From Ectothiorhodospiraceae bacterium (GTDB taxonomy: Bacteria; Pseudomonadota; Gammaproteobacteria; Nitrococcales; Aquisalimonadaceae): a DNA stretch of 32,220 nt. The notes beneath the pieces are model-generated. The model was not told the DNA's origin, did not search any database, and saw nothing but the letters and a program-made list of their open reading frames with translations. Position 1 is the stretch's first letter; each line of letters begins with the position of its first letter. Shown piece by piece: positions 1-32,220 of this stretch. The stretch lies in assembly GCA_007130525.1 (NCBI GenBank), contig SLSJ01000158.1, forward strand, positions 1-32,220, in the 5' to 3' direction. The position numbers were made by a program, and so were the translations under genes.

Positions 1-49
1 CGGCATCTCGACGCCCTCGCGACGAACGGCGGTGAGATATGCGGGCTAG
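1..49 (-). repeat. Partial copy 1 of the CTAG-terminated ~180-bp inverted-repeat (MITE-like) element, cut by window edge
   Basis: cggcatctcgacgccctcgcgacgaacggcggtgagatatgcgggctag is the reverse complement of the left end of the copies at 13435 and 18257. Confidence 0.9.
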
Positions 50-468
50 TGTATCCGTCGTTCCGCCGGCACCGACTTGCTGCTTGCGGATTCGGGTCGT
101 GGTGAGGCATGGTGCATGATCATGCGCCATTCACCCGCTTCACAACGGAATATGTTCGTGGCAAGGACCCCCGAAGGAGAACCCGTCTGTCCCTCGACGT
201 AGATGATTTCCTGGAGGGTCTGGATTGCAATATCACGGTTGACGATGAAGCGTTCCCGGGTGTTGTGGAAATGCATGGCCGGAGCGTTACCGAAGATCTG
301 CTTCCAGGTTTCACGGATGGCATCGTAACCGTCAAGCCGATGCCCCATCGGATGAATGCATACGGTGTCGGGAGCCGTGGACCAGACTGCCATCATGTCA
401 TCCAGATCACGACGTTCGAATGCCCGGTAAAAGGCCGCTGCGGCGTGTTCAGGTGTATCCGCGATCAT
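46..468 (-). CDS. SnoaL-like / NTF2-fold protein
   Basis: 140 aa ORF; AAAAFYRAFERRDLDDMMAVW...HPMGHRLDGYDAIRETWKQIF is typical of SnoaL/NTF2-like proteins; stop codon lies in the repeat terminus. Confidence 0.8.
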   Translation of the reverse strand: MIADTPEHAAAAFYRAFERRDLDDMMAVWSTAPDTVCIHPMGHRLDGYDAIRETWKQIFGNAPAMHFHNTRERFIVNRDIAIQTLQEIIYVEGQTGSPSGVLATNIFRCEAGEWRMIMHHASPRPESASSKSVPAERRIH

Positions 469-1447: not shown

Positions 1448-4400
1448 TCACGATTGTTCAACCTCCGCATACTCCCGGCGCCGCCACAGCCAGAACAGCA
1501 CCGGCACGAGCAGCAGCGAGACCAGCGGAGCGGTGATCATGCCGCCCACCATGGGTGCCGCAATACGCTGCATGGCTTCGGCACCAAGACCGTCGGCAAC
1601 GAGCAGCGGACTTAGCCCCAGAACCACAGTCAGGGCGGTCATGGTCAGGGGCCGAACCCGCATCACCGCGCCTTCTATGATGGCCGCCCGCAACTCCGCC
1701 CACGATGCCGGTTGACGTCTGTCCACTGCCTCGCGGATGTACATCAGCATGACCACCGCGAATTCTGCAGCCAGGCCAAGCAGTAGAGCGAAGCCCGCGA
1801 ACACCGCGACCGAGACGTTGAGCCCCATGAGGTAGAGGATCCAGATGCCGCCGACTGCCGCGAAGGACAGGGACCCCATCAGCATCAGAGCCTCGGCGCC
1901 GCTGCGGAAGCACAAGTAGAGCAGCAGGAAGATCAGCACCAGTGTGACCGGCACCACCAGGGAAAGCCGCTCGCGCGCACGTTCCAGGTGTTCATACTGC
2001 CCGGCCCACGCGATGGAGTACCCCGCCGGCAGGTCTACTTGCGCGCGCACCGCGTCGCGGGCGGCCGCCACATAGGAACCCAGATCACGGCCGCGCACGT
2101 CTACCGTCACCAGGCCGTTGAGTCTTGCATTCTCGGTGCGGATCATGGCCGGGCCGTCGGTGATCTCCACCCGTGCCAGCGCCTCCAGCGGCAGGTGGTT
2201 CCCGTTCGCCGTGACCACCGGAAGCTCGCGCAGGCGTTCGATCGAGCCGCGCCAGTCCTGCGGATAGCGCAGGTTGACAGGATAACGCTCAAGGCCTTCG
2301 ACGGTATCCGTCACATCCATGCCGCCCACCGCCGTCTGGATCACCGACTGCAGGTCGGTGACGGTGACACCATGACGGGCGGCCTGCCGTCGATCCACTT
2401 CGATCTCGATGTAGCGCCCTGTGCCGGTGCGCTCGGCATAGGCCGAGGCGGTACCGGGCAACTCGCCCAGCACCCGCTCCACGTCACGGCCGATGCGCTC
2501 GATCTCGTGCAGGTCCGGGCCGGCGATCTTCACGCCCACCGCTGAGCGTACCCCGGTGGAAAGCATGTCGATGCGGGTCTTGATGGGTGGCACCCAGACG
2601 TTGGAGGCACCGGGAATCTGCACCACCTCGTCCAGTTCCCGGATCAGGTCGTCCTTGGTCAGGCCCTCACGCCACTGGTCCCGGGGCTTGAACCGGATCA
2701 CCGTCTCCAGCATGCCGATGGGTGCCGGGTCCGTTGCGGTTTCCGCTCGGCCTGCCTTGCCGAACACCTGGTCCACCTCGGGTACGGTCTTGATCAGCCG
2801 GTTGGTCTGTTGCAGGAACTCACGGACCTTGCCGATGGATGCTCCGGGGTTGAGCGTGGGCATGTACATCAGATCGCCCTCGTCCATGTCGGGCATGAAC
2901 TCGGTGCCGAGTCGGCTGGCAGGGTAGACCATGCTGGCTGCAAGCAGCAGTGCCAGCAGCAGCGTTACCCAGGGGTACCGGAGCAGGCCTTCCAGGGCGG
3001 GGCGATAGAGGGCGATCAGGCTGCGGCTGACCGGATGTGCGGATTCGGGGCGGATGCGGCCGCGTACCAGATAGCCCATCAGCACCGGTACCAGGGTGAT
3101 ACCGAGCCCGGCGGCCGCCGCCATGGCGTAGGCGCCGGTGAACGCCAGCGGGTGGAACAGTCGACCCTCCTGTCCTTCGAGGGTGAACAACGGCAGGAAG
3201 CTCACCACGATAATGAGCAGTGCGAAGAAAAGCGGCCGTCCCGTCTCCTTCGCCGCGATGGCAACCGTGGTCCAGCGGTCCTCTCCGGGGGGCGCGCGCT
3301 CCAGCCGCTTGTGCAGGTTTTCCACCATCACGATCGCGGCGTCCACCATGGCGCCGATGGTGACCGCTATCCCGCCCAGGGACATGATGTTGGCATTGAT
3401 TCCCTGCTGCTGCATGATCAGCAGCGCCGCCATGATGCCGATTGGCAGACTGACGATGGCCACCAGCGCCGAGCGCAGGTGCAGCAGGAACACGGCGCAT
3501 ACCAGTGCGATGATCAGAAACTCCTGTACCAGCTTTTCGGACAGATGGCGCACGGAACCCTGGATCAGTTCGGAACGGTCGTAGGTCTCCACGACCTCCA
3601 CTCCGTCCGGAAGACCGGGCTGGAGTTCTTCCAGGCGTTGCTTCACCCGTTCAATGGTGGCGAGCGCGTTCTCGCCGTGGCGCATGACTACGAAGCCGCC
3701 CACCACCTCGCCTTCGCCATCCAGTTCGGCGATGCCGCGTCGCGCCCTCGGGCCCGTGCGTACTTCGGCGACGTCCTCCAGCAGTACAGGGGTTCCGTCT
3801 CCGGCACGACCCACAGGCACCAGGCGCAGGTCCTCGATTCCCTTCAGAAAGCCCAGGGACCACACCATGTACTCGGCCTCGGCCATCTCCACCACTGAGC
3901 CGCCGGCCTCACGGTTGGCTGCCCGGATCGACTGGCGGATTTCATCCAGGGTGAGGGCGTAGGCACGGGCCCGGTTGGGGTCAAGCAGCACCTGGTATTG
4001 GCGCACCATGCCGCCCAGGGGAGCAACCTCGGCAACCCCTTCCACCGACTGCAGTTCGAAGCGGAGGAACCAGTCCTGTAGGGAACGCAGTTGTGCCAGG
4101 TCATGGTTGCCGGTGTGGTCCACCAGCACATACTGGTAGACCCAGCCAACGCCGGTGGCGTCCGGTCCCAGCGCAGGCCGCGCTTCCGGCGGCAGATCCG
4201 GGGCAACCTGGCTCAGGTACTCCAGTACCCGGGCACGGGCCCAGTACGGGTCGGTGCCGTCCTCGAACAGCACATAGACAAAGGAGTCACCGAACATGGA
4301 GAAGCCACGCACGTCCCGGGCCCTGGGAACCGAGAGCAACGCGGTGGTCAACGGGTAGGTTACCTGGTCCTCCACCACCTGGGGCGCCTGACCGGCGAAA

Positions 4401-4555
4401 CCGGTATGCACGATGACCTGGACGTCGGAAAGATCGGGGATCGCATCCAGCGGCGTCTGCCGCAGGCTGAACACGCCCCAGAGCACGAACACCCCCGTGA
4501 GCAGAATCACCAGCAGGCGATTGTCCAGCGACCACTGCACAATGCGGTCAATCAT
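1448..4555 (-). CDS. cusA: HME-RND Cu(I)/Ag(I) efflux pump CusA-like (module 1)
   Basis: RND protein of about 1035 aa; GAMVDAAIVMVEN proton-relay motif; Met positions matching the CusA Met triad in EGDLMYMP, APIGMLET and TRIDMLSTG; start at MIDRIVQW (4555). Confidence 0.95.
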   Translation of the reverse strand: MIDRIVQWSLDNRLLVILLTGVFVLWGVFSLRQTPLDAIPDLSDVQVIVHTGFAGQAPQVVEDQVTYPLTTALLSVPRARDVRGFSMFGDSFVYVLFEDGTDPYWARARVLEYLSQVAPDLPPEARPALGPDATGVGWVYQYVLVDHTGNHDLAQLRSLQDWFLRFELQSVEGVAEVAPLGGMVRQYQVLLDPNRARAYALTLDEIRQSIRAANREAGGSVVEMAEAEYMVWSLGFLKGIEDLRLVPVGRAGDGTPVLLEDVAEVRTGPRARRGIAELDGEGEVVGGFVVMRHGENALATIERVKQRLEELQPGLPDGVEVVETYDRSELIQGSVRHLSEKLVQEFLIIALVCAVFLLHLRSALVAIVSLPIGIMAALLIMQQQGINANIMSLGGIAVTIGAMVDAAIVMVENLHKRLERAPPGEDRWTTVAIAAKETGRPLFFALLIIVVSFLPLFTLEGQEGRLFHPLAFTGAYAMAAAAGLGITLVPVLMGYLVRGRIRPESAHPVSRSLIALYRPALEGLLRYPWVTLLLALLLAASMVYPASRLGTEFMPDMDEGDLMYMPTLNPGASIGKVREFLQQTNRLIKTVPEVDQVFGKAGRAETATDPAPIGMLETVIRFKPRDQWREGLTKDDLIRELDEVVQIPGASNVWVPPIKTRIDMLSTGVRSAVGVKIAGPDLHEIERIGRDVERVLGELPGTASAYAERTGTGRYIEIEVDRRQAARHGVTVTDLQSVIQTAVGGMDVTDTVEGLERYPVNLRYPQDWRGSIERLRELPVVTANGNHLPLEALARVEITDGPAMIRTENARLNGLVTVDVRGRDLGSYVAAARDAVRAQVDLPAGYSIAWAGQYEHLERARERLSLVVPVTLVLIFLLLYLCFRSGAEALMLMGSLSFAAVGGIWILYLMGLNVSVAVFAGFALLLGLAAEFAVVMLMYIREAVDRRQPASWAELRAAIIEGAVMRVRPLTMTALTVVLGLSPLLVADGLGAEAMQRIAAPMVGGMITAPLVSLLLVPVLFWLWRRREYAEVEQS

Positions 4556-6278
4556 GGTCCATCTCCCTCTGGTCATCCAGCGGTTCGATGGCGGTGACCT
4601 CGTAACCGAATGTGTCGGCCTCCCGGGCCCGGAAACGGATTTTCATATGCGGCTGGACCTTGTCGAGATCCACCCCCTCGGCGACCAGGAAGTTCATGGT
4701 CATACCCGGCATGTCCAGGTCCGGGATCGGACCGTGGGAGATGTTTATCTCCCGGTTCTCCCGATCGACGCTGTTGACCACCGCCTCAGCCCAGTCATCC
4801 GACCCCGAACCTTTCCCGTTGCCGTTGACGGCTTCGATACCCGTAACCCGGTACACGCCGGGTTCCGGTTCCGTAATCCGGAAACGCACTTCTGCTCCGG
4901 GCTCGATGCCCTCTAGATCAAGGTCCGCCGCGAGTTCGAAGTCCATGGTCATTTCCGGCCAGTCCAGTTCCGGGATCGGTTCATGGGAGAGGTTGATGGT
5001 TTCGGCATCCGCATCTACCGCATTCACCACGCCCCTTGACGTGATTTCCTGCCTTTCATCGTCCGACTCCACCGCTTCCATGCGGCCGAGTTCGGCCACG
5101 ACATCGGACTCCGAGTCGATCAGGAACTGACCGGATGTCACTACCCGCTCGCCCTCTTCCAGACCATCCAGGATCTCCAGCCGGTCGCCGGCATTTTGGC
5201 CCACACGGATCTCCCGGGCCTGAAAGCGGCCTTTCCCCCTGTATACGATCACCCGGGTCTGATGACCGGTGCGGATAACCGCCTCGGCCGGCACGTGCAC
5301 CACGTCGTTGATGGGTTCCGCGTCCAGACGTACGGCCGCATACATGCCCGGCTTCAGCTGTTCATCGGGGTTGTCCAGCGCCAGTCGGGCCCGCACTGTC
5401 CGGGTCGGTGACGCCAGCGAGGGGTAGATGTAGTCGATGCGCCCCTGCAGGCTTTCACCCGGATGGTAGGGCAGCAGAACCTCCGCTGCCTGACCGACGG
5501 TGACGCCGTTTGCCTGCTGTTCGAAGAGATCGGCCAGTACCCAGACGCGGGATAGATCGGCGATGGTCATGATGGAGTCCGCGGGCCTGACGAACATGCC
5601 ATGGCGGACGTGCAGTTCCTGCACCACGCCAGCGTGTCTGGCACGGACCGAGATCGTCTGTCGTACCTCGCCGCTGCGCTCCACCCCGGCTATCTCGTCG
5701 GGGCCCATGCCCAGTGCACGCAGCCTTTGTCGTGCCGATTCGACGCCGCCGCCACGCCGAACGGCCTGCAGGAACTCCTCCTGGGCATTGACTAGCACGG
5801 GTGAGTACAACCGGAACAGCAGTTGTCCGGCCTCCACGCGCTCGCCGGTTGTGCGCACGCGCAGTTCTTCGATCCAGCCGTCGACACGCAGGTGGACGTG
5901 CGACAGACCGGCCTCGTCGTAGTCCACGAATCCGAAGGCGTCCACCTGCCGGACAAGCTTGCCGCGTTCGGCAGGTGCGGTGCGCAGGTTCATGTTCTGC
6001 AGGACTGCCGTCCGGATACGAACCGTCCCGGGTTCTTCCTCTGCATCATCGTCGTCGGCATAGACCGGGATGTAATCCATGCCCATATGATCCTGGCGGG
6101 GCTCCGGCGAGGTGATGGAGGAGTCCATGGGGTTGCGGTAATAGAGGATCTCGCGGTCGTTGTCCGAAGCCTCGGCCTGTTCGTGGTCCATATCGTGGTG
6201 CAGATACCACCAGGTTGCGCCGCTGCCGGTCACTGCGCCGAGGAGCAGCAGGATCAGCGTTATCAATGGTGTCTTCAT
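4548..6278 (-). CDS. cusB: CusB-like periplasmic adaptor with two C-terminal CusF-like domains (module 1)
   Basis: 576 aa; YYRNPMDSSITSPEPRQDHMGMDYIPVY metal-binding domain, membrane-fusion core, then two copies of an IxHxPIPxLxxPxMTM CusF-type domain. Confidence 0.93.
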   Translation of the reverse strand: MKTPLITLILLLLGAVTGSGATWWYLHHDMDHEQAEASDNDREILYYRNPMDSSITSPEPRQDHMGMDYIPVYADDDDAEEEPGTVRIRTAVLQNMNLRTAPAERGKLVRQVDAFGFVDYDEAGLSHVHLRVDGWIEELRVRTTGERVEAGQLLFRLYSPVLVNAQEEFLQAVRRGGGVESARQRLRALGMGPDEIAGVERSGEVRQTISVRARHAGVVQELHVRHGMFVRPADSIMTIADLSRVWVLADLFEQQANGVTVGQAAEVLLPYHPGESLQGRIDYIYPSLASPTRTVRARLALDNPDEQLKPGMYAAVRLDAEPINDVVHVPAEAVIRTGHQTRVIVYRGKGRFQAREIRVGQNAGDRLEILDGLEEGERVVTSGQFLIDSESDVVAELGRMEAVESDDERQEITSRGVVNAVDADAETINLSHEPIPELDWPEMTMDFELAADLDLEGIEPGAEVRFRITEPEPGVYRVTGIEAVNGNGKGSGSDDWAEAVVNSVDRENREINISHGPIPDLDMPGMTMNFLVAEGVDLDKVQPHMKIRFRAREADTFGYEVTAIEPLDDQREMDHD

Positions 6279-11272: not shown

Positions 11273-11337
11273 GCACGCCCCGTCACGGCGAGCAGATCGG
11301 CGTGCGCAGTAGAAGGGCAGTAAGATATGCGGGCTAG
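11273..11337 (+). repeat. Copy 2 of the CTAG element, right half only
   Basis: cgcacgccccgtcacggcgagcagatcggcgtgcgcagtagaagggcagtaagatatgcgggctag; no left half recognisable upstream. Confidence 0.85.
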
Positions 11338-12668: not shown

Positions 12669-12722
12669 TGTGGAAACACTGAAGTATTCACGCGGCCGCT
12701 TGAATACTTCAGTGTTTCCACA
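12669..12722. promoter_or_regulatory. 54-bp near-perfect palindrome, candidate operator
   Basis: TGTGGAAACACTGAAGTATTCA-CGCGGCCGCT-TGAATACTTCAGTGTTTCCACA; 22-bp perfect arms, NotI core, ends 37 bp before the MBL start codon. Confidence 0.75.
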
Positions 12723-13392: not shown

Positions 13393-13434
13393 GGTGCCGC
13401 GTTGGCACCTTATCGCACGCTGTCGGTCCTTGCC

Positions 13435-13615
13435 AGCCCACATATCTCACCGCCGTTCGTCGCGAGGACGCCGAGATGCCGCTGTGGCGGGGCGCACGGA
13501 CCGGAAGACGGCGAAGGCGTAGCCGACACTACGTCGAGCCGGCTGCAGGGAGTACGCCCCGTCACGGCGAGCAGATCGGCGTGCGTAGTAGAAGGGCGGT
13601 GAGATATGCGGGCTA
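13435..13615 (+). repeat. Copy 3 of the CTAG element, complete (~181 bp)
   Basis: agcccacatatctcaccgccgttcgtcgcgagg...gtagtagaagggcggtgagatatgcgggcta; terminal inverted repeats. Confidence 0.93.
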
Positions 13616-14908
13616 GCGACGAGGAGCCACCCTTGTCACGGCCACTGCCGCCAGTAACGAGGCCAGTACCGCGTAGACGGCAAACAGTTGAGCCACGCCG
13701 GATGGCCTTGCCCCTGCATCGAGGAGCAATCCCGCCAGTACGGGGGACAGGGCTGTCATCATTACCATGATCGCCTGGACCACGGCTCGAATCGCGCCCA
13801 GGTGTCTGGTGCCATAGAGTTCGGCCCACAGGGCGCCCATAAGCGTTCCTGCCGCACCGACGCTCAGACCCGCGAGAATCAGGTAGGCAGGCGCCACCCA
13901 GGGTCCGGTCGCCATCGCGAGCAAAGCGAGGCCCGTCGTCATAGGTAGCAGATAGACGGGTACCAGGCGGCGTGCGCCGAATCGGTCCACGAGCGGACCG
14001 GTGAGCAGGAGCGACAGGACATGGGCCGAGGCGAAACCGAGAAAGCTGAAGGCAAGCCACCGCAGGCTCCAGCCCTGCTCCTCCGCCAGCGGCACCTGGT
14101 GGAAGAACAGCGCGGTAATGATGAATGGTGGTGCCATTATTGCTGGCAGCATTGCGTAGAAGAATGGATGTCGCAGCACCTCCCCGCGCCGCCAGTCCCG
14201 CATCCGGTCGTTGTCATCCGTGTCCGCCAGGCGCGCGGCATACGCCGCCTGGCGCTGTTGGTGGCCCCGAAGCAGGGTAAGCGCGGCCGGCATCATGACC
14301 GCCGCCACCACGGTGGCCGTGATTAACCAGGTTTCCCGCCAGCCCAGTACCGAAGCACTGTTCACCATGATCAAGGGCACGATGCCCTCGGCGAGAGGGA
14401 GTCCGAGCATGGCGATGCTTATCGCCTTGCCGCGAGCGGTCGTGAAGTAACGGGCCATGCTCGTCTGGGCGATATGCACCATCATTCCCTGGCCGCTGAG
14501 ACGGAGCATGAAAAAGGCGAGGGCGAGGACGCCGATACCCTGACTGCCGGCCAGCAGAAGGCAGCCCAGACCGGCAGTGGTCAGAACGCCGGTGGTGAGC
14601 ACACGCAGGTCGACCGAGTCCACCAGCCGTCCTATCCAGATCAGGCTGACGGCGCTCGCGACAGTGGCCAGGCCGTATAGCAGGCCGAAATCGGCATTGC
14701 TCAGATCGAACTCTTCCCGGAGGTGGCCGCCGAACAGCGAAATGACAAACGTCTGTCCGACGCTGGAGAGTCCGGCCAGCAACACGCCGAAGCCCAGGAA
14801 TCTCGCGTTGCGGAGTATGAAGCGCAAATAGTCCAATCCGGTGCAACCGTCGCTCGGGATCAGGCGGCGAGGATAGCCGCGATCCGCGTTGGCAGAAACC
14901 CCGGCCAT
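13613..14908 (-). CDS. MFS transporter
   Basis: 431 aa, about 12 hydrophobic segments, FGLLYGLATVASAVSLIWIGRLVDS; TAG stop lies in copy 3 terminus; start may be internal. Confidence 0.88.
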   Translation of the reverse strand: MAGVSANADRGYPRRLIPSDGCTGLDYLRFILRNARFLGFGVLLAGLSSVGQTFVISLFGGHLREEFDLSNADFGLLYGLATVASAVSLIWIGRLVDSVDLRVLTTGVLTTAGLGCLLLAGSQGIGVLALAFFMLRLSGQGMMVHIAQTSMARYFTTARGKAISIAMLGLPLAEGIVPLIMVNSASVLGWRETWLITATVVAAVMMPAALTLLRGHQQRQAAYAARLADTDDNDRMRDWRRGEVLRHPFFYAMLPAIMAPPFIITALFFHQVPLAEEQGWSLRWLAFSFLGFASAHVLSLLLTGPLVDRFGARRLVPVYLLPMTTGLALLAMATGPWVAPAYLILAGLSVGAAGTLMGALWAELYGTRHLGAIRAVVQAIMVMMTALSPVLAGLLLDAGARPSGVAQLFAVYAVLASLLAAVAVTRVAPRR

Positions 14909-17364: not shown

Positions 17365-17619
17365 ATGCACACGATGATGCACGACACGGGAGCCGGACAT
17401 TGGTTCGGGCACCCGCTCATGCTGATCCTCATGGTCGCTTTTCTTGCCCTCATCTTCGCCTGGGCTCATCTGCTGGCGATCGCCCTGAAAGCGTGGCGAA
17501 AACGCTGCGCCAGCGGCCACATCGACCGTGAGGCATACTTGAGGCGCCACCAGTACCGGGCGGATTCCAAGTCTGGCGCGAATTACGGAAGCCACTGGCT
17601 TCAGGAGGGAACATCATGA
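17365..17619 (+). CDS. Small His/Met-rich membrane protein (SHOCT-like tail)
   Basis: 84 aa MHTMMHDTGAGHWFGHPLMLILMVAFLALIFAWAHLL...HIDREAYLRRHQY; overlaps next ORF. Confidence 0.65.
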   Translation: MHTMMHDTGAGHWFGHPLMLILMVAFLALIFAWAHLLAIALKAWRKRCASGHIDREAYLRRHQYRADSKSGANYGSHWLQEGTS

Positions 17620-18215
17620 TGAATCGCACACGCAGGGCAACAATCGGTCTGGCGCTGCTTCTTGGTGCCGGAATGGTCGGCATGGCCGGTGCCCAGGGCA
17701 TGCACGGCGGCGGTATGCATGGGGGTGGTCATGGAGGGGTGGCCAAGGGCGGCATGATGGAAAACTGCCCAATGATGGGCAGTCAGTCCCGCACCGGCAA
17801 GAGGCATGGAAAGGGCCCCGGGAGCATGCGCGGCGGTGTGATGGATCCAAGACACGGTGAAAAGGAAATGATGCGACGCCTCGATCTTGATGACGATCAG
17901 CGCATGCAGTTCCGGGAACTCCGCAGTGAGCACCGTCGTGAGGAGTTCGCGCGCAAGGCGGACATGATGGATTTGCGCGACGAAATGCAGGAGCTCATGG
18001 CCGGGGACCGCCCGGATCCGGAACGCGTCAGGGAGCTGCATGGACGCATGGCGGATGTGCATGGGGACATGCTGGCTGACCGCATCAGGTTGCGTAACGA
18101 GATGCGGGATCGGCTTACCGACGAGCAGCGTGAGCAGTTGCGGGAGCGACGTCATCGACCGGGCGGAATGATGCATGGCCGCCCCGGCATGCGCGGCGAC
18201 ATGATGCAGCAATAG
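17616..18215 (+). CDS. Spy/CpxP/ZraP-like periplasmic protein, Met/His-rich
   Basis: 199 aa; signal peptide, MHGGGMHGGGHGGVAKGGMMENCPMM, helical LDLDDDQRMQFREL and LTDEQREQLRERR. Confidence 0.8.
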   Translation: MMNRTRRATIGLALLLGAGMVGMAGAQGMHGGGMHGGGHGGVAKGGMMENCPMMGSQSRTGKRHGKGPGSMRGGVMDPRHGEKEMMRRLDLDDDQRMQFRELRSEHRREEFARKADMMDLRDEMQELMAGDRPDPERVRELHGRMADVHGDMLADRIRLRNEMRDRLTDEQREQLRERRHRPGGMMHGRPGMRGDMMQQ

Positions 18216-18256: not shown

Positions 18257-18440
18257 CTAGCCCGCATTTCTCACCGCCGTTCGTCACGAGGGCGTCGAGA
18301 TGCCGCTGTGACGGGGGGCACGGACCGGAAGACGGCGAAGGCGTAGCTGACACTACGGCGAGCCGGCTGGAGGGAGTACGCCCCGACACAGCGAGCAGAT
18401 CGGCGTGCGTAGTAGAAGGGCGGTGTGATATGCGGGCTGG
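18257..18440 (+). repeat. Copy 4 of the CTAG element, complete (~184 bp)
   Basis: ctagcccgcatttctcaccgccgttcgtcacgag...gtagtagaagggcggtgtgatatgcgggctgg; close match to copy 3. Confidence 0.93.
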
Positions 18441-21252: not shown

Positions 21253-21618
21253 TCAGTCCAGTGCGCGGATTTCCGTAATCTCGTAGTCCGTTTCCCCCGT
21301 CTGCTCCAGGGTGAAGGCCACCGGGTCGCCGGGTTCGAGCTCACTGGCAAGCTCCGGGTCCCGCAGCGGCAGGTCCATCGTCATGGCCGGCCACCGCAGG
21401 TCCGGGATGGGGTCGTGGCTCAGGGTTACATGCCTGCCATCGGCGTCAATCGCCTCAAGCACCCCCTCGGCTTCCGCGGTGACACGATCAGAGTCGCCAC
21501 CGTGGTGCCGGTCATGAGCCAGCACCGGCACCGCGGCCATGGCCAGGCCGGTTGCCAGGACGAGCGATTTCAAAAGAACTCGAAACAATATGCCTGATGT
21601 CGAATGAAGCGTTTTCAT
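21253..21618 (-). CDS. cusF: CusF-like periplasmic Cu/Ag-binding protein (free-standing)
   Basis: 121 aa with signal peptide; LSHDPIPDLRWPAMTMDL retains the His, Trp, Met, Met set. Confidence 0.9.
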   Translation of the reverse strand: MKTLHSTSGILFRVLLKSLVLATGLAMAAVPVLAHDRHHGGDSDRVTAEAEGVLEAIDADGRHVTLSHDPIPDLRWPAMTMDLPLRDPELASELEPGDPVAFTLEQTGETDYEITEIRALD

Positions 21619-24600
21619 GGTGATACTCCCTGGTTTGCTGTATCGATTTGCTCGTCAGTCGTGGATAGACGGTTGCGCTGCCAGAGCCAGTAGAGGACCG
21701 GGATGAGCAGCAGCGAAACGAGGGGGGCGGTGATCATGCCGCCGATTACCGGGGCCGCGATCCGCTGCATGGCTTCCGAGCCCAGACCGCCGCCGAGCAG
21801 CAACGGCGACAGGCCCAGGACGACCGTGAGCGAGGTCATGGCCTTGGGCCGGACCCGCATCACCGCGCCCTCGATGATCGCCGCCTCCAGCTCCGCCCGT
21901 GTACCGGGCTGCCGTTGCTCGACCGCATTGCGAACATACATGAGCATCACCACGGCGAACTCGGTGGCCAGCCCGATGAGCAGAATGAAGCCGGCGGCCA
22001 CGGCCACGGAGACGTCATAGCCCAGCAAGAAGATCAGCCAGACGCCCCCCACTGCCGCGAAAGGCAGCGCACCCATGAGCATCAGTGCCTCGGCGGAGCT
22101 GCGGAAACACAGGTAGAGCAGCAGGAAGATGAGCACGATTGTTACCGGGACCACGTAGCTCAGCCGCTCCTGTGCCCGCTCCATGTGCTCGTACTGGCCC
22201 GACCAGGTGATGGAATAGCCGGGTAGCAGCTCCACCTGGTCGGTCACGGCCTGCCGCGCTTCCGCCACGTAGGAGCCGAGATCCCGGTCGCGGATGTCCA
22301 CCACCACCCAGCCGTTCAGGCGGGCATTCTCGGTGCGGATCATGGACGGCCCGTCGACAATGTCCACGCGGGCCAGGGATTCCAGCGGCAGGTTGGCGCC
22401 GTTGGGGGTGACCAGCGGCAGTTCGCGAAGCTGCTCGACGGAGTTCCGCCAGTCCTGCGGGTAACGCAGATTGACGGGGTACCGTTCCAGGCCTTCCACG
22501 GTCTCGGTCACGTTCATGCCGCCCACCGCGGTCTGGATGACCGACTGCAGTGCCTCGACGCTGACGCCATGGCGCGCCGCGCGCGCGCGGTTTACTTCCA
22601 CTTCGATGTAGCGGCCCGTCGCGGTGCGGTCGGCATAGGCGGAGGCGGTACCGGGAACCGTTTCCAGCACCTTTTCAACCTGCCGGCCGATGCGCTCGAT
22701 TCCCTCCAGGTCCGGGCCGGCGATCTTGACACCCACCGGCGACCGGATGCCGGTGGCCAACATGTCGATACGGGTCTTGATGGGTGGCACCCAGACGTTG
22801 GCCACGCCGGGAAACCGTACGGTCTCGTCCAGCTCCCGGATGATGTCGGCCTTGGTGATGCCGTCACGCCATTGATCCCGGGGCTTGAACCGGATCACCG
22901 TCTCGAGCATGCCCAGAGGCGCCGGATCGGTGGCGGTTTCGGCCCGGCCCGCCTTGCCGAAAACCCGGTCCACCTCAGGTACGGTCTTGATCAGGCGGTC
23001 AGTCTGCTGCAGAAACTCGCGGACCTTGCCGATGGAGGCACCCGGTTCCAGCGAGGGCATGTACATGAGATCCCCTTCGTCCAGTTCGGGCATGAACTCC
23101 GTTCCCAGCCGTGAACCCGGTACAATCATGCTCGCCGCCAACAGCGCCGCCACGGCGACGGTCGTCCACGGATACCGCAGCAGCGAGCTCAGCACCGGGC
23201 GATAGCCCGCGATCAGGAGGCGGCTGATGGGATGTCCGGCCTCGGGGCGGATGCGGCCGCGCACGAGATAGCCCATCAGCACCGGCACCAGGGTAATGCC
23301 GAGCCCGGCGGCGGCGGCCATGGCGTACGTGCCGGTGAAGGCCAGGGGCTTGAACAGACGCCCTTCCTGGCCTTCAAGGGCGAACAGCGGCAGGAAGCTC
23401 ACCACGATGACGAGCAGGGCGAAGAACAGGGGCCGCCCGGTTTCCTTTGCCGCCATGGAAACCGTGGTCCACCGATCCTCGCCCGGGAGCGCCCGCTCCA
23501 GGCGCTTGTGCAGGTTCTCGACCATTACGATGGCGGCATCCACCATGGCGCCGATGGTGACCGCTATCCCGCCCAGGGACATGATGTTGGCATTGATGCC
23601 CTGCTGCTGCATGATCAGCAGCGCCGCCATGATACCGATCGGCAGACTGACGATTGCGACCAGCGCCGAGCGCAGGTGCAACAGGAACACCAGGGAGACG
23701 GCGGCGATTATCAGGAACTCCTGGACCAGCTTGACGGAAAGATTTCTGACCGACTCCTGAATCAGCACGGAACGGTCGTAGGTTTCCACGAGCTCCACAC
23801 CGTCCGGCAGGCCGCGCTCCAGTTCCGCCAGGCGTTCCTTTACCCGGTTGATGGTGGCCAGCGCGTTCTCGCCGTGGCGCATGACCACGAAGCCGCCCAC
23901 CACCTCGCCCTCGCCGTCGAGTTCGGCGATGCCGCGCCGGGCCTGCGGGCCGATGCGGATCTCGGCCACGTCTTCGAGCAGTACGGGCGTGCCGTCCTCG
24001 CCGCTGCCAACGGGTATGTGGGCGAGGTCGGAAATGCCCGTGAGATAGCCGCGCGAGCGCACCATGTGCTCGGCCTCGGCCATTTCCACCACCGAGCCGC
24101 CCGCTTCCCGGTTGCCGTCCTGAATCGCCTTGCGGATCTGTGCCTGGGTCAGGCCGTAGGCGCGGGCCCGGTTGGGGTCCAGCACCACCTGGTACTGCCG
24201 CACCATGCCGCCGAGAGTGGCGACTTCGGCAACGCCCTCCACCGACTGCAGTTCGAACCGAAGGAACCAGTCCTGCAGGGCGCGCAGCTCCGAGAGGTCG
24301 TGCGCGCCGGTACGGTCAACCAGCGCGTACTGGTAGACCCAGCCAACGCCGGTGGCGTCCGGGCCGAGGGCGGGGCGGGCGCTGTCCGGAAGGTTGGGTG
24401 CCACCTGGCTCAGGTACTCCAGCACCCGGGAGCGAGCCCAGTACGGGTCGGTGCCGTCCTCGAAAAGCACGTACACATAGGAGTCGCCGAACATGGAGAA
24501 GCCGCGCACGTCCGCCGCTCCGGGCACTGCCAGCATGGCCGTCGTCAGGGGGTAGGTGACCTGGTCCTCCACCACCTGGGGCGCCTGTCCGGCGTAGGAG

Positions 24601-24752
24601 GTGTGGATGATGACCTGCACGTCCGACAGATCCGGAATGGCGTCCAGGGGAGTCTGCCGTAACGAGAAGATGCCCCATGCGATGAACACGCCAGTGAGCA
24701 GCAGCACCAGCAGGCGGTTGTCCAGGGACCACTGAATGATTCGCTCGATCAT
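21615..24752 (-). CDS. cusA: HME-RND Cu(I)/Ag(I) efflux pump CusA-like (module 2)
   Basis: 1045 aa; same motifs as module 1 CusA (EGDLMYMP, APLGMLET, TRIDMLATG); ATGA overlap with cusF. Confidence 0.95.
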   Translation of the reverse strand: MIERIIQWSLDNRLLVLLLTGVFIAWGIFSLRQTPLDAIPDLSDVQVIIHTSYAGQAPQVVEDQVTYPLTTAMLAVPGAADVRGFSMFGDSYVYVLFEDGTDPYWARSRVLEYLSQVAPNLPDSARPALGPDATGVGWVYQYALVDRTGAHDLSELRALQDWFLRFELQSVEGVAEVATLGGMVRQYQVVLDPNRARAYGLTQAQIRKAIQDGNREAGGSVVEMAEAEHMVRSRGYLTGISDLAHIPVGSGEDGTPVLLEDVAEIRIGPQARRGIAELDGEGEVVGGFVVMRHGENALATINRVKERLAELERGLPDGVELVETYDRSVLIQESVRNLSVKLVQEFLIIAAVSLVFLLHLRSALVAIVSLPIGIMAALLIMQQQGINANIMSLGGIAVTIGAMVDAAIVMVENLHKRLERALPGEDRWTTVSMAAKETGRPLFFALLVIVVSFLPLFALEGQEGRLFKPLAFTGTYAMAAAAGLGITLVPVLMGYLVRGRIRPEAGHPISRLLIAGYRPVLSSLLRYPWTTVAVAALLAASMIVPGSRLGTEFMPELDEGDLMYMPSLEPGASIGKVREFLQQTDRLIKTVPEVDRVFGKAGRAETATDPAPLGMLETVIRFKPRDQWRDGITKADIIRELDETVRFPGVANVWVPPIKTRIDMLATGIRSPVGVKIAGPDLEGIERIGRQVEKVLETVPGTASAYADRTATGRYIEVEVNRARAARHGVSVEALQSVIQTAVGGMNVTETVEGLERYPVNLRYPQDWRNSVEQLRELPLVTPNGANLPLESLARVDIVDGPSMIRTENARLNGWVVVDIRDRDLGSYVAEARQAVTDQVELLPGYSITWSGQYEHMERAQERLSYVVPVTIVLIFLLLYLCFRSSAEALMLMGALPFAAVGGVWLIFLLGYDVSVAVAAGFILLIGLATEFAVVMLMYVRNAVEQRQPGTRAELEAAIIEGAVMRVRPKAMTSLTVVLGLSPLLLGGGLGSEAMQRIAAPVIGGMITAPLVSLLLIPVLYWLWQRNRLSTTDEQIDTANQGVSP

Positions 24753-24765
24753 GGGATGCCTCCGT

Positions 24766-26241
24766 TCAGTGGTCGTGCCCCAGGGGCTCGATGGCGGTAA
24801 GCTCGAACACGTATTCCTCGCGTTCGCGGATACGGATACGGACGCGGTCGCCCTTCGACAGCCCTTCCAGGCTCACCCCGTCGGCAACGGTGAAGTCCAT
24901 GGTCATCGCCGGCCAGCCCAGCGCCGGAATCGGTTCGTGGTCCAGGTTCACTTCGCGCGCGTCCCGGTCCACGCTGTTGATCCGGCCTTCGGCCTCCACG
25001 TCCTCGTCGCCGTCAACCTGCTCGGTGGATGGATGCTCGCCATTGGCCATGCGCGCCAGTTCCACCGTCACGGAAGACTCGGAATCGATCAGGAACTGAC
25101 CCGAGGTGACGATGAGGTCCCCTTCCTCCAGACCTTCCAGCACTTCCATTCGGTCACCGATCCGTCGTCCCATGCGTACCTCGCGCGCCTGGAAGCGGCC
25201 ATCGCCGAGGGCGGCTATGACCCGATCCTGGTGGCCCGTCCGGATCACCGCCTCGGCGGGAACGTGGGTCACGTCCCCGGTGGCCTCACCCTCGATGTGA
25301 ACATCGGCCCACATACCAGGCTTCAGACGTCCGTCCGGGTTATCGAAACTCAGGCGCGCCCGTATCGTGCGCGTGGGAGACGCCAGGGTGGGGTAGATGT
25401 AACCAACGCGACCGTTGAGCGTTTCACCGGCGCGAAACGGTAGGTGGACCTCCGCCGCCAGGCCTTCCCGGACAGCATCCGACTGGTGTTCGAAAAGGTC
25501 GGCAATGACCCAGATACGCGACAGGTCGGCGATGCTCATCACCTCGGTGCCGGGCTGTACGTACATCCCCTCCGCCACGTTAAGGCTCTGGACAATGCCA
25601 TCCTGGGCGGCCCGTACCGGCACCAGTTGCAGTACCTCGCCGCGTTCTTCCAGCGTGCGGATTGCGCTATCGTCCATGCCCAGCGCGCGCAGGCGTTGCC
25701 GCGCGGGATTCAGGTCGGACCCGCGCCGCATGATCTGCAGCAGCTCCTCCTGCGCATTGACCAGCACCGGCGAGTAAAGCCGGAAGAGTACCTGTCCCGC
25801 CTCTACACGTTCCCCCGTGGTCCGAACCTGAAGGTCCTCGATCCAGCCTTCGGTGCGGAGATGGACATGGGACTGGGTGGCCTCGTCCACTTCCACGAAA
25901 CCGACCGTGCGGATCCCGCGGGCAAGGCTGCCGCGTTCCACCGTTGCCGTGCGAACCCCCATGTTCTGAATCACCGCGGGGGTGATGCGGACAATTTCCG
26001 GGTCGACGTCATCGTTGTCCGCGTCGGCATAGACGGGGATGTAATCCATGCCCATCTCGTCCTTGCGCGGTTCGTCGGACCGGATGGACGGGTTGTGTGG
26101 ATGCTGGTAGTACAGCACCTCGCGCTCCGCGCGCGCGTCGGTGCCGAGGGACAGGGGGATTCCGCCCTGGTAGAGTGCCAGCGCGCCGACGCCGGCACCG
26201 GCACCCACGAGAAGAAGAACGACAGTTGCGAGGGGCGTCAT
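24766..26241 (-). CDS. cusB: CusB-like adaptor with one C-terminal CusF-like domain (module 2)
   Basis: 491 aa; DEMGMDYIPVYAD, adaptor core, C-terminal LDHEPIPALGWPAMTMDF. Confidence 0.93.
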   Translation of the reverse strand: MTPLATVVLLLVGAGAGVGALALYQGGIPLSLGTDARAEREVLYYQHPHNPSIRSDEPRKDEMGMDYIPVYADADNDDVDPEIVRITPAVIQNMGVRTATVERGSLARGIRTVGFVEVDEATQSHVHLRTEGWIEDLQVRTTGERVEAGQVLFRLYSPVLVNAQEELLQIMRRGSDLNPARQRLRALGMDDSAIRTLEERGEVLQLVPVRAAQDGIVQSLNVAEGMYVQPGTEVMSIADLSRIWVIADLFEHQSDAVREGLAAEVHLPFRAGETLNGRVGYIYPTLASPTRTIRARLSFDNPDGRLKPGMWADVHIEGEATGDVTHVPAEAVIRTGHQDRVIAALGDGRFQAREVRMGRRIGDRMEVLEGLEEGDLIVTSGQFLIDSESSVTVELARMANGEHPSTEQVDGDEDVEAEGRINSVDRDAREVNLDHEPIPALGWPAMTMDFTVADGVSLEGLSKGDRVRIRIREREEYVFELTAIEPLGHDH

Positions 26242-32087: not shown

Positions 32088-32220
32088 CTAGCCCGCATGT
32101 CTCACCGCCCTTCTACTACGCACGCCGATCTGCTCGCTGTGACGGGGCGTACTCCCTCCAGCCGGCTCGACGTAGTGTCAGCTACGCCTTCGCCGTCTTC
32201 CGGTCCGTGCCCCCCGCCAC
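32088..32220 (-). repeat. Copy 5 of the CTAG element, reverse orientation, cut by window edge
   Basis: ctagcccgcatgtctcaccgcccttctactacgcacgccgatctgctcg... is the reverse complement of the right end of copies 3 and 4. Confidence 0.93.

Follow-up and report, generated by a model that had tools for sequence, protein, structure and literature searches.

Correia/NEMIS, ERIC and RUP are bacterial MITEs of less than 200 bp that have terminal inverted repeats, duplicate their target, lie between genes, reach high copy number and form long stem-loops in transcripts (PMC2229807). The 176-bp element described here is likewise built and distributed, but it is G+C-rich, uses a 4-bp YTAR target rather than having TA termini, and occupies most of the stop codons written C-TAG (preceding base, then stop codon). 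Close to it among autonomous elements is a 1784-bp insertion sequence of the IS1380 family (DDE_Tnp_1_4, NF033539), which has the same 15-bp terminal sequence and CTAG duplications. In contrast to that insertion sequence, the element has no transposase, nor is its interior visibly derived from the insertion sequence. Target duplications of 5 bp have been reported for IS1247 of the same family (PMC3281130). The eukaryotic piggyBac transposons, to which IS1380 is the outgroup, duplicate the 4-bp sequence TTAA, with TTAG and CTAA as rare variants (PMC10813416); CTAG is instead the dominant target of the present element, and membership in that group is not claimed. A target-site stop codon also meets a transposon end in ISPsp10 (IS427 group of IS5), where the TAA of the target serves as stop codon for the transposase (PMC4133298). 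There the target ends the transposon's own gene, whereas here it ends a host gene.

The 176-bp element and its target

The window, which is the whole stretch of DNA analyzed (32,220 nucleotides), is a complete contig (C105) of a fragmented MAG of 2.65 Mb in 287 contigs, estimated at 87% completeness (G000). It holds two full copies of the element, one truncated copy and, at either edge of the contig, a copy that is cut off (Table 1). Two related efflux-type gene clusters (window 1448-6278 and 21615-26241) are also present, with 75-82% identity over 300-bp stretches.

Table 1. Element copies, target-site duplications and adjoining genes in the window.
Feature	Position	Strand	Remarks
Element right end	1..45	+	Copy cut by contig edge; 45 bp present
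CTAG target-site duplication	46..49		TAG within it is the stop of the SnoaL-like gene
SnoaL-like protein gene	46..468	-	140 aa; stop inside duplication; PF13474 E=2e-23
Truncated element copy	11275..11333	-	One end only
CTAG adjoining truncated copy	11334..11337		Not at a predicted stop codon
Distal target duplication	13433..13436		Of 13437..13612 copy; decayed to CCAG
Full element copy	13437..13612	-	176 bp; strand is the orientation of alignment A2
Gene-side target duplication	13613..13616		CTAG, intact; TAG is the MFS gene stop
MFS transporter gene	13613..14908	-	431 aa; MFS_1 E=2e-30
Intergenic CTAG duplication	18257..18260
Full element copy	18261..18436	-	176 bp; ~40 bp past stop of gene 17616..18215
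Other target duplication	18437..18440		Of 18261..18436 copy; decayed to CTGG
Intergenic CTAG duplication	32088..32091
Element copy	32092..32220	+	Cut by right contig edge

The element is short and non-coding, runs from CCCGCATATCTCACC to GGTGAGATATGCGGG with inverted ends of ~20 bp (end sequences CCCGCATATCTCACCGCC and GGCGGTGAGATATGCGGG), and has no transposase inside. Its terminal motifs are dispersed throughout the genome at high copy number, with 327 and 337 occurrences at no more than two mismatches, as compared to one each for a reversed control pattern. Copies and stop codons were surveyed in 1.107 Mb on 91 contigs (~42% of the genome), containing 1023 predicted genes, 100 full copies and 84 single ends. 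Genes were predicted with a home-made hexamer-based caller, which recovered the genes of the window. Element termini did not rise above background in the three available congeners, and the element was not found in the plasmid records searched.

Identical 4-bp flanks were present in 42 of 92 full copies. These include CTAG (32 copies), TTAA (four), TTAG (three), and CTAA, TTAT and CCAG (one each). The unmatched pairs mostly combine CTAG with CCAG or CTGG, which are single transitions from CTAG. A flank that changes from site to site yet is the same at both ends of a copy is target rather than element sequence. CTAG, taken as the terminus of the element in the original prediction made from the window, is thus a 4-bp target-site duplication outside the element sequence, and pairs such as TTAA, TTAG, CTAA and TTAT take its place elsewhere. 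The accompanying claim that the element recognizes CTAG was borne out, and extends more generally to YTAR. No extended target consensus was detected beyond CTAG, as flank positions -6 to -1 are without strong base preference. CTAG is also rare, as supposed (13 observed in the window versus 44 expected). A Vsr-like repair bias would produce changes of the kind mostly seen in decayed duplicates, CTAG to CCAG or CTGG, as well as a rarity of CTAG.

Given its terminal inverted repeats, target-site duplications of several types, high dispersed copy number and ends in common with an autonomous element, we class it as a MITE, very probably a DNA transposon of the non-autonomous kind. In the open-access papers searched, neither the 176-bp element nor a MITE that saturates stop codons was reported.

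Candidate mobilizer and hairpin structure

Scanning genome contigs for the end sequences returned at least 83 stretches, including ones from Thioalkalivibrio, other Gammaproteobacteria, Acidobacteriota, Gemmatimonadota and Myxococcales. A complete genome from another family of the same order (G038) has 97 and 116 matching termini, and its loci L091-L120 contain 176-bp elements with the same ends together with 54-bp miniature forms flanked by CTAG duplications. An Arenicellales genome has a 1784-bp element in two identical copies, with CCCGCATATSTCACC at the ends and CTAG duplications outside, each copy encoding a 475-aa IS1380 transposase (NF033539 E=6e-117, PF13701 E=6e-152), so that in the 1784-bp element (loci L139 and L167) a transposase of this family is linked to these ends. 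In the window's genome a degenerate IS1380 fragment lies behind the same end, and no intact IS1380 transposase was found in this 87% complete MAG. No IS1380 transposase over the cut-off was detected in the complete genome with ~100 related copies. On the basis of the shared ends, the likely mobilizer is an IS1380-family transposase acting in trans. Two other candidates were rejected: IS701-type transposases (PF13546), which also use a YTAR target, had no match in either genome searched, and the DDE_Tnp_1 genes of the complete genome are not bounded by the element's ends.

Other phyla have versions of exactly 176 bp that are 48-90% identical to the local consensus and fold end to end into a single hairpin. 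The hairpin is far more stable than shuffled sequences (z of -8.7 and -12), compensatory changes are found in 25 of 47 consensus pairs across phyla, and the asymmetric loops CTRCGG and CCTCGC, which lie opposite one another, are nearly invariant. This loop asymmetry gives the element a direction. In the window's genome, copies at stop codons divide 13:1 by orientation between tandem genes and 6:16 between convergent genes (p=1e-4), in a post hoc test on that genome alone, as other genomes contribute few copies.

These properties could mean that the element works as a hairpin at mRNA 3' ends, in the manner of a REP-type mRNA stabilizer or a terminator, and is kept behind stop codons for the benefit of the host gene. 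Stability, compensatory change and context-dependent orientation are all consistent with such a role. However, bacterial MITEs in general have stable stems (PMC2229807), the element is absent from all three congeners, stop occupancy is explained by target sites (see below), and the orientation result carries the limits just given; we consider a host function unlikely. The compensatory changes may have arisen by conversion between the arms of the palindrome, and may also reflect RNA function. No Rfam match was obtained for the element in the window or at L124, L146 and L109, even at E<=1. It is similarly doubtful, if conceivable, that the element is more than a parasite: a polar, structured RNA hairpin with conserved length and asymmetric loops, spread across several phyla, that turns into a strand-specific 3'-end element when placed directly behind a stop. 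Opposite orientations would in that case be tolerated in two settings, one between co-directional genes and the other where genes converge.

Occupancy of stop codons and other CTAG sites

The SnoaL-like and MFS genes both end in xxC TAG followed directly by CCCGCAT(A), the element terminus, as was originally described. The same arrangement recurs genome-wide: in the 1.107 Mb surveyed, 57 element ends lie at distance 0 from a stop codon, with three or fewer at any other distance within 60 bp. Loci pooled from other genomes gave a similar picture, with 26 of 139 element ends exactly at a stop and no more than three at any other distance. When stops were sorted by context (the preceding base plus the stop codon), 44 of 69 C-TAG stops, about two-thirds, were occupied. 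The other YTAR stops were occupied in 11 of 47 cases (C-TAA 6/21, T-TAG 3/13, T-TAA 2/13), and stops of all remaining contexts in 2 of 874. Tabulating the copies therefore revealed the excess at TAG stops that had been anticipated. Gene ends are thus a main habitat of this mobile element, and a very stable hairpin stands directly behind dozens of host stops.

It had also been suggested that the element lands on stop codons and that these are safe sites. CTAG sites were occupied or free, respectively, in 30 and 23 cases at stops, 43 and 63 in intergenic DNA, and 0 and 62 within coding sequence. Safety is well supported, as 73 non-coding CTAGs were occupied and 86 free while none of the 62 coding CTAGs was occupied (p=8e-14). 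The excess at TAG stops likewise stands, but an active preference for them does not. Active targeting of stop codons or gene 3' ends beyond CTAG recognition, for example via DNA structure or transcription termination, would fit the higher raw occupancy of stop CTAGs (30/53) than of intergenic CTAGs (43/106, p=0.06), and also the finding that convergent gene ends are the most filled (27 occupied and 7 free, versus 29 and 49 for tandem and 8 and 20 for divergent contexts). Within convergent or tandem context, though, occupancy does not differ between stop and intergenic CTAGs (CMH p=0.55), stops outside YTAR are almost never occupied, and a convergent excess is expected if insertions near promoters or between operon genes are selected against. 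We regard active targeting as very improbable. Since CTAG occupancy is equal within context and coding sites are excluded, target supply and purging suffice to account for stop occupancy, with no stop-seeking needed. A four-letter target thus lets a transposon fill most of one stop-codon class without harm to proteins.

Origin and fate of the duplicated stop codon

The original prediction held that the element terminus provides the stop codon of the genes it adjoins. This is not supported: the TAG belongs to the duplicated target. In ten gene families that could be resolved across up to three congeners free of the element, moreover, orthologues terminate at precisely the same residue. These families include RadA-like, rRNA methylase-like, serC-, serA- and pstC/pstA/phoU-like genes, named by sequence resemblance only. 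Two further homologues, assigned with less confidence (queries 32 and 35, one congener apiece), end 10 and 3 residues off. Homologues of the SnoaL-like and MFS genes of the window have their ends no more than a few residues away; in L322, whose genome is free of the element, the end of the SnoaL-like homologue is displaced by a single residue and has an unoccupied CTAG stop. At pstC, what follows the distal duplication (CCACGGCAAGAA) can be aligned to the bases just past the stop of the orthologue (CCACGGCAGGAA), which shows a simple insertion between two neighboring co-directional genes.

On the suggested check, whether empty orthologous sites carry CTAG, the outcome was mixed: the orthologues end at the same residue, but many now end in TGA or TAA instead of C-TAG. 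Orthologous stops are TAR in 15 of 29 cases, versus 34% of all stops in the element-free congener G002. Several families have TGA in all congeners, and there the C-TAG present before insertion is deduced from the duplication. C-TAG is as common in G002 (20 of 318 stops, 6.3%) as in the window's genome (69 of 990, 7.0%), so the element created no stops, and because the target is duplicated, an xxC-TAG in frame at the junction must have been a stop beforehand. A TAG carried by the element, cutting short the genes that it enters in the right frame, would fit the stop at its edge in every such case. For the families compared this is scarcely credible, given that the four bases differ from target to target and are identical on the two sides, that orthologues end at the same residue, and that C-TAG is in no excess over the element-free congener. 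We conclude from these sequence comparisons that the host stop pre-existed and was duplicated, not supplied, by the element.

The two duplicates have decayed unequally, with the gene (stop) side changed in 1 of 37 copies and the distal side in 17 of 37 (p=2e-5), as expected if selection holds the gene-side stop. Among the 92 full copies, no gene was found that had lost its stop on the gene side and read on into the element. The duplicated target thus amounts to a built-in experiment, in which one copy is selected as a stop and its twin is free to decay, making selection on the stop measurable.

Taken as a whole, we consider the following MITE model highly probable; that transposition happens in trans, that selection purges insertions and in which order the events took place are inferred from the patterns above. 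An IS1380-family DDE transposase would mobilize the element in trans, inserting it at YTAR, chiefly CTAG, and duplicating the 4 bp. YTAR on one strand reads as a pyrimidine plus TAA or TAG, so any natural stop of this kind preceded by C or T would present a target. Insertions inside genes would be purged, while those in intergenic DNA or straddling a stop would leave the protein unchanged, the latter because the gene-side duplicate keeps xxC-TAG. Hundreds of insertions would then use up much of the supply of harmless CTAGs, above all between convergent genes, with the outcome that two-thirds of C-TAG stops carry the element. Selection would hold the gene-side duplicate as a stop codon, and the distal copy would decay.

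At locus L213:4866-8893, a phosphate-uptake cluster has one copy exactly at the stop of each of its phoU-, pstA- and pstC-like genes, three in all. The window also contains a second palindromic MITE-like repeat (12672-12719) with ends GGAAACRCTGATTTATTC, which occurs in forms of ~270 bp and 48-50 bp and has YTAR duplications, e.g., CTAA/CTAA and CTAG/CTAG. In a sample from the congener G002 (loci L295-L314), seven ends of this repeat adjoin a stop codon exactly, and the stop-codon effect thus recurs with another YTAR element.
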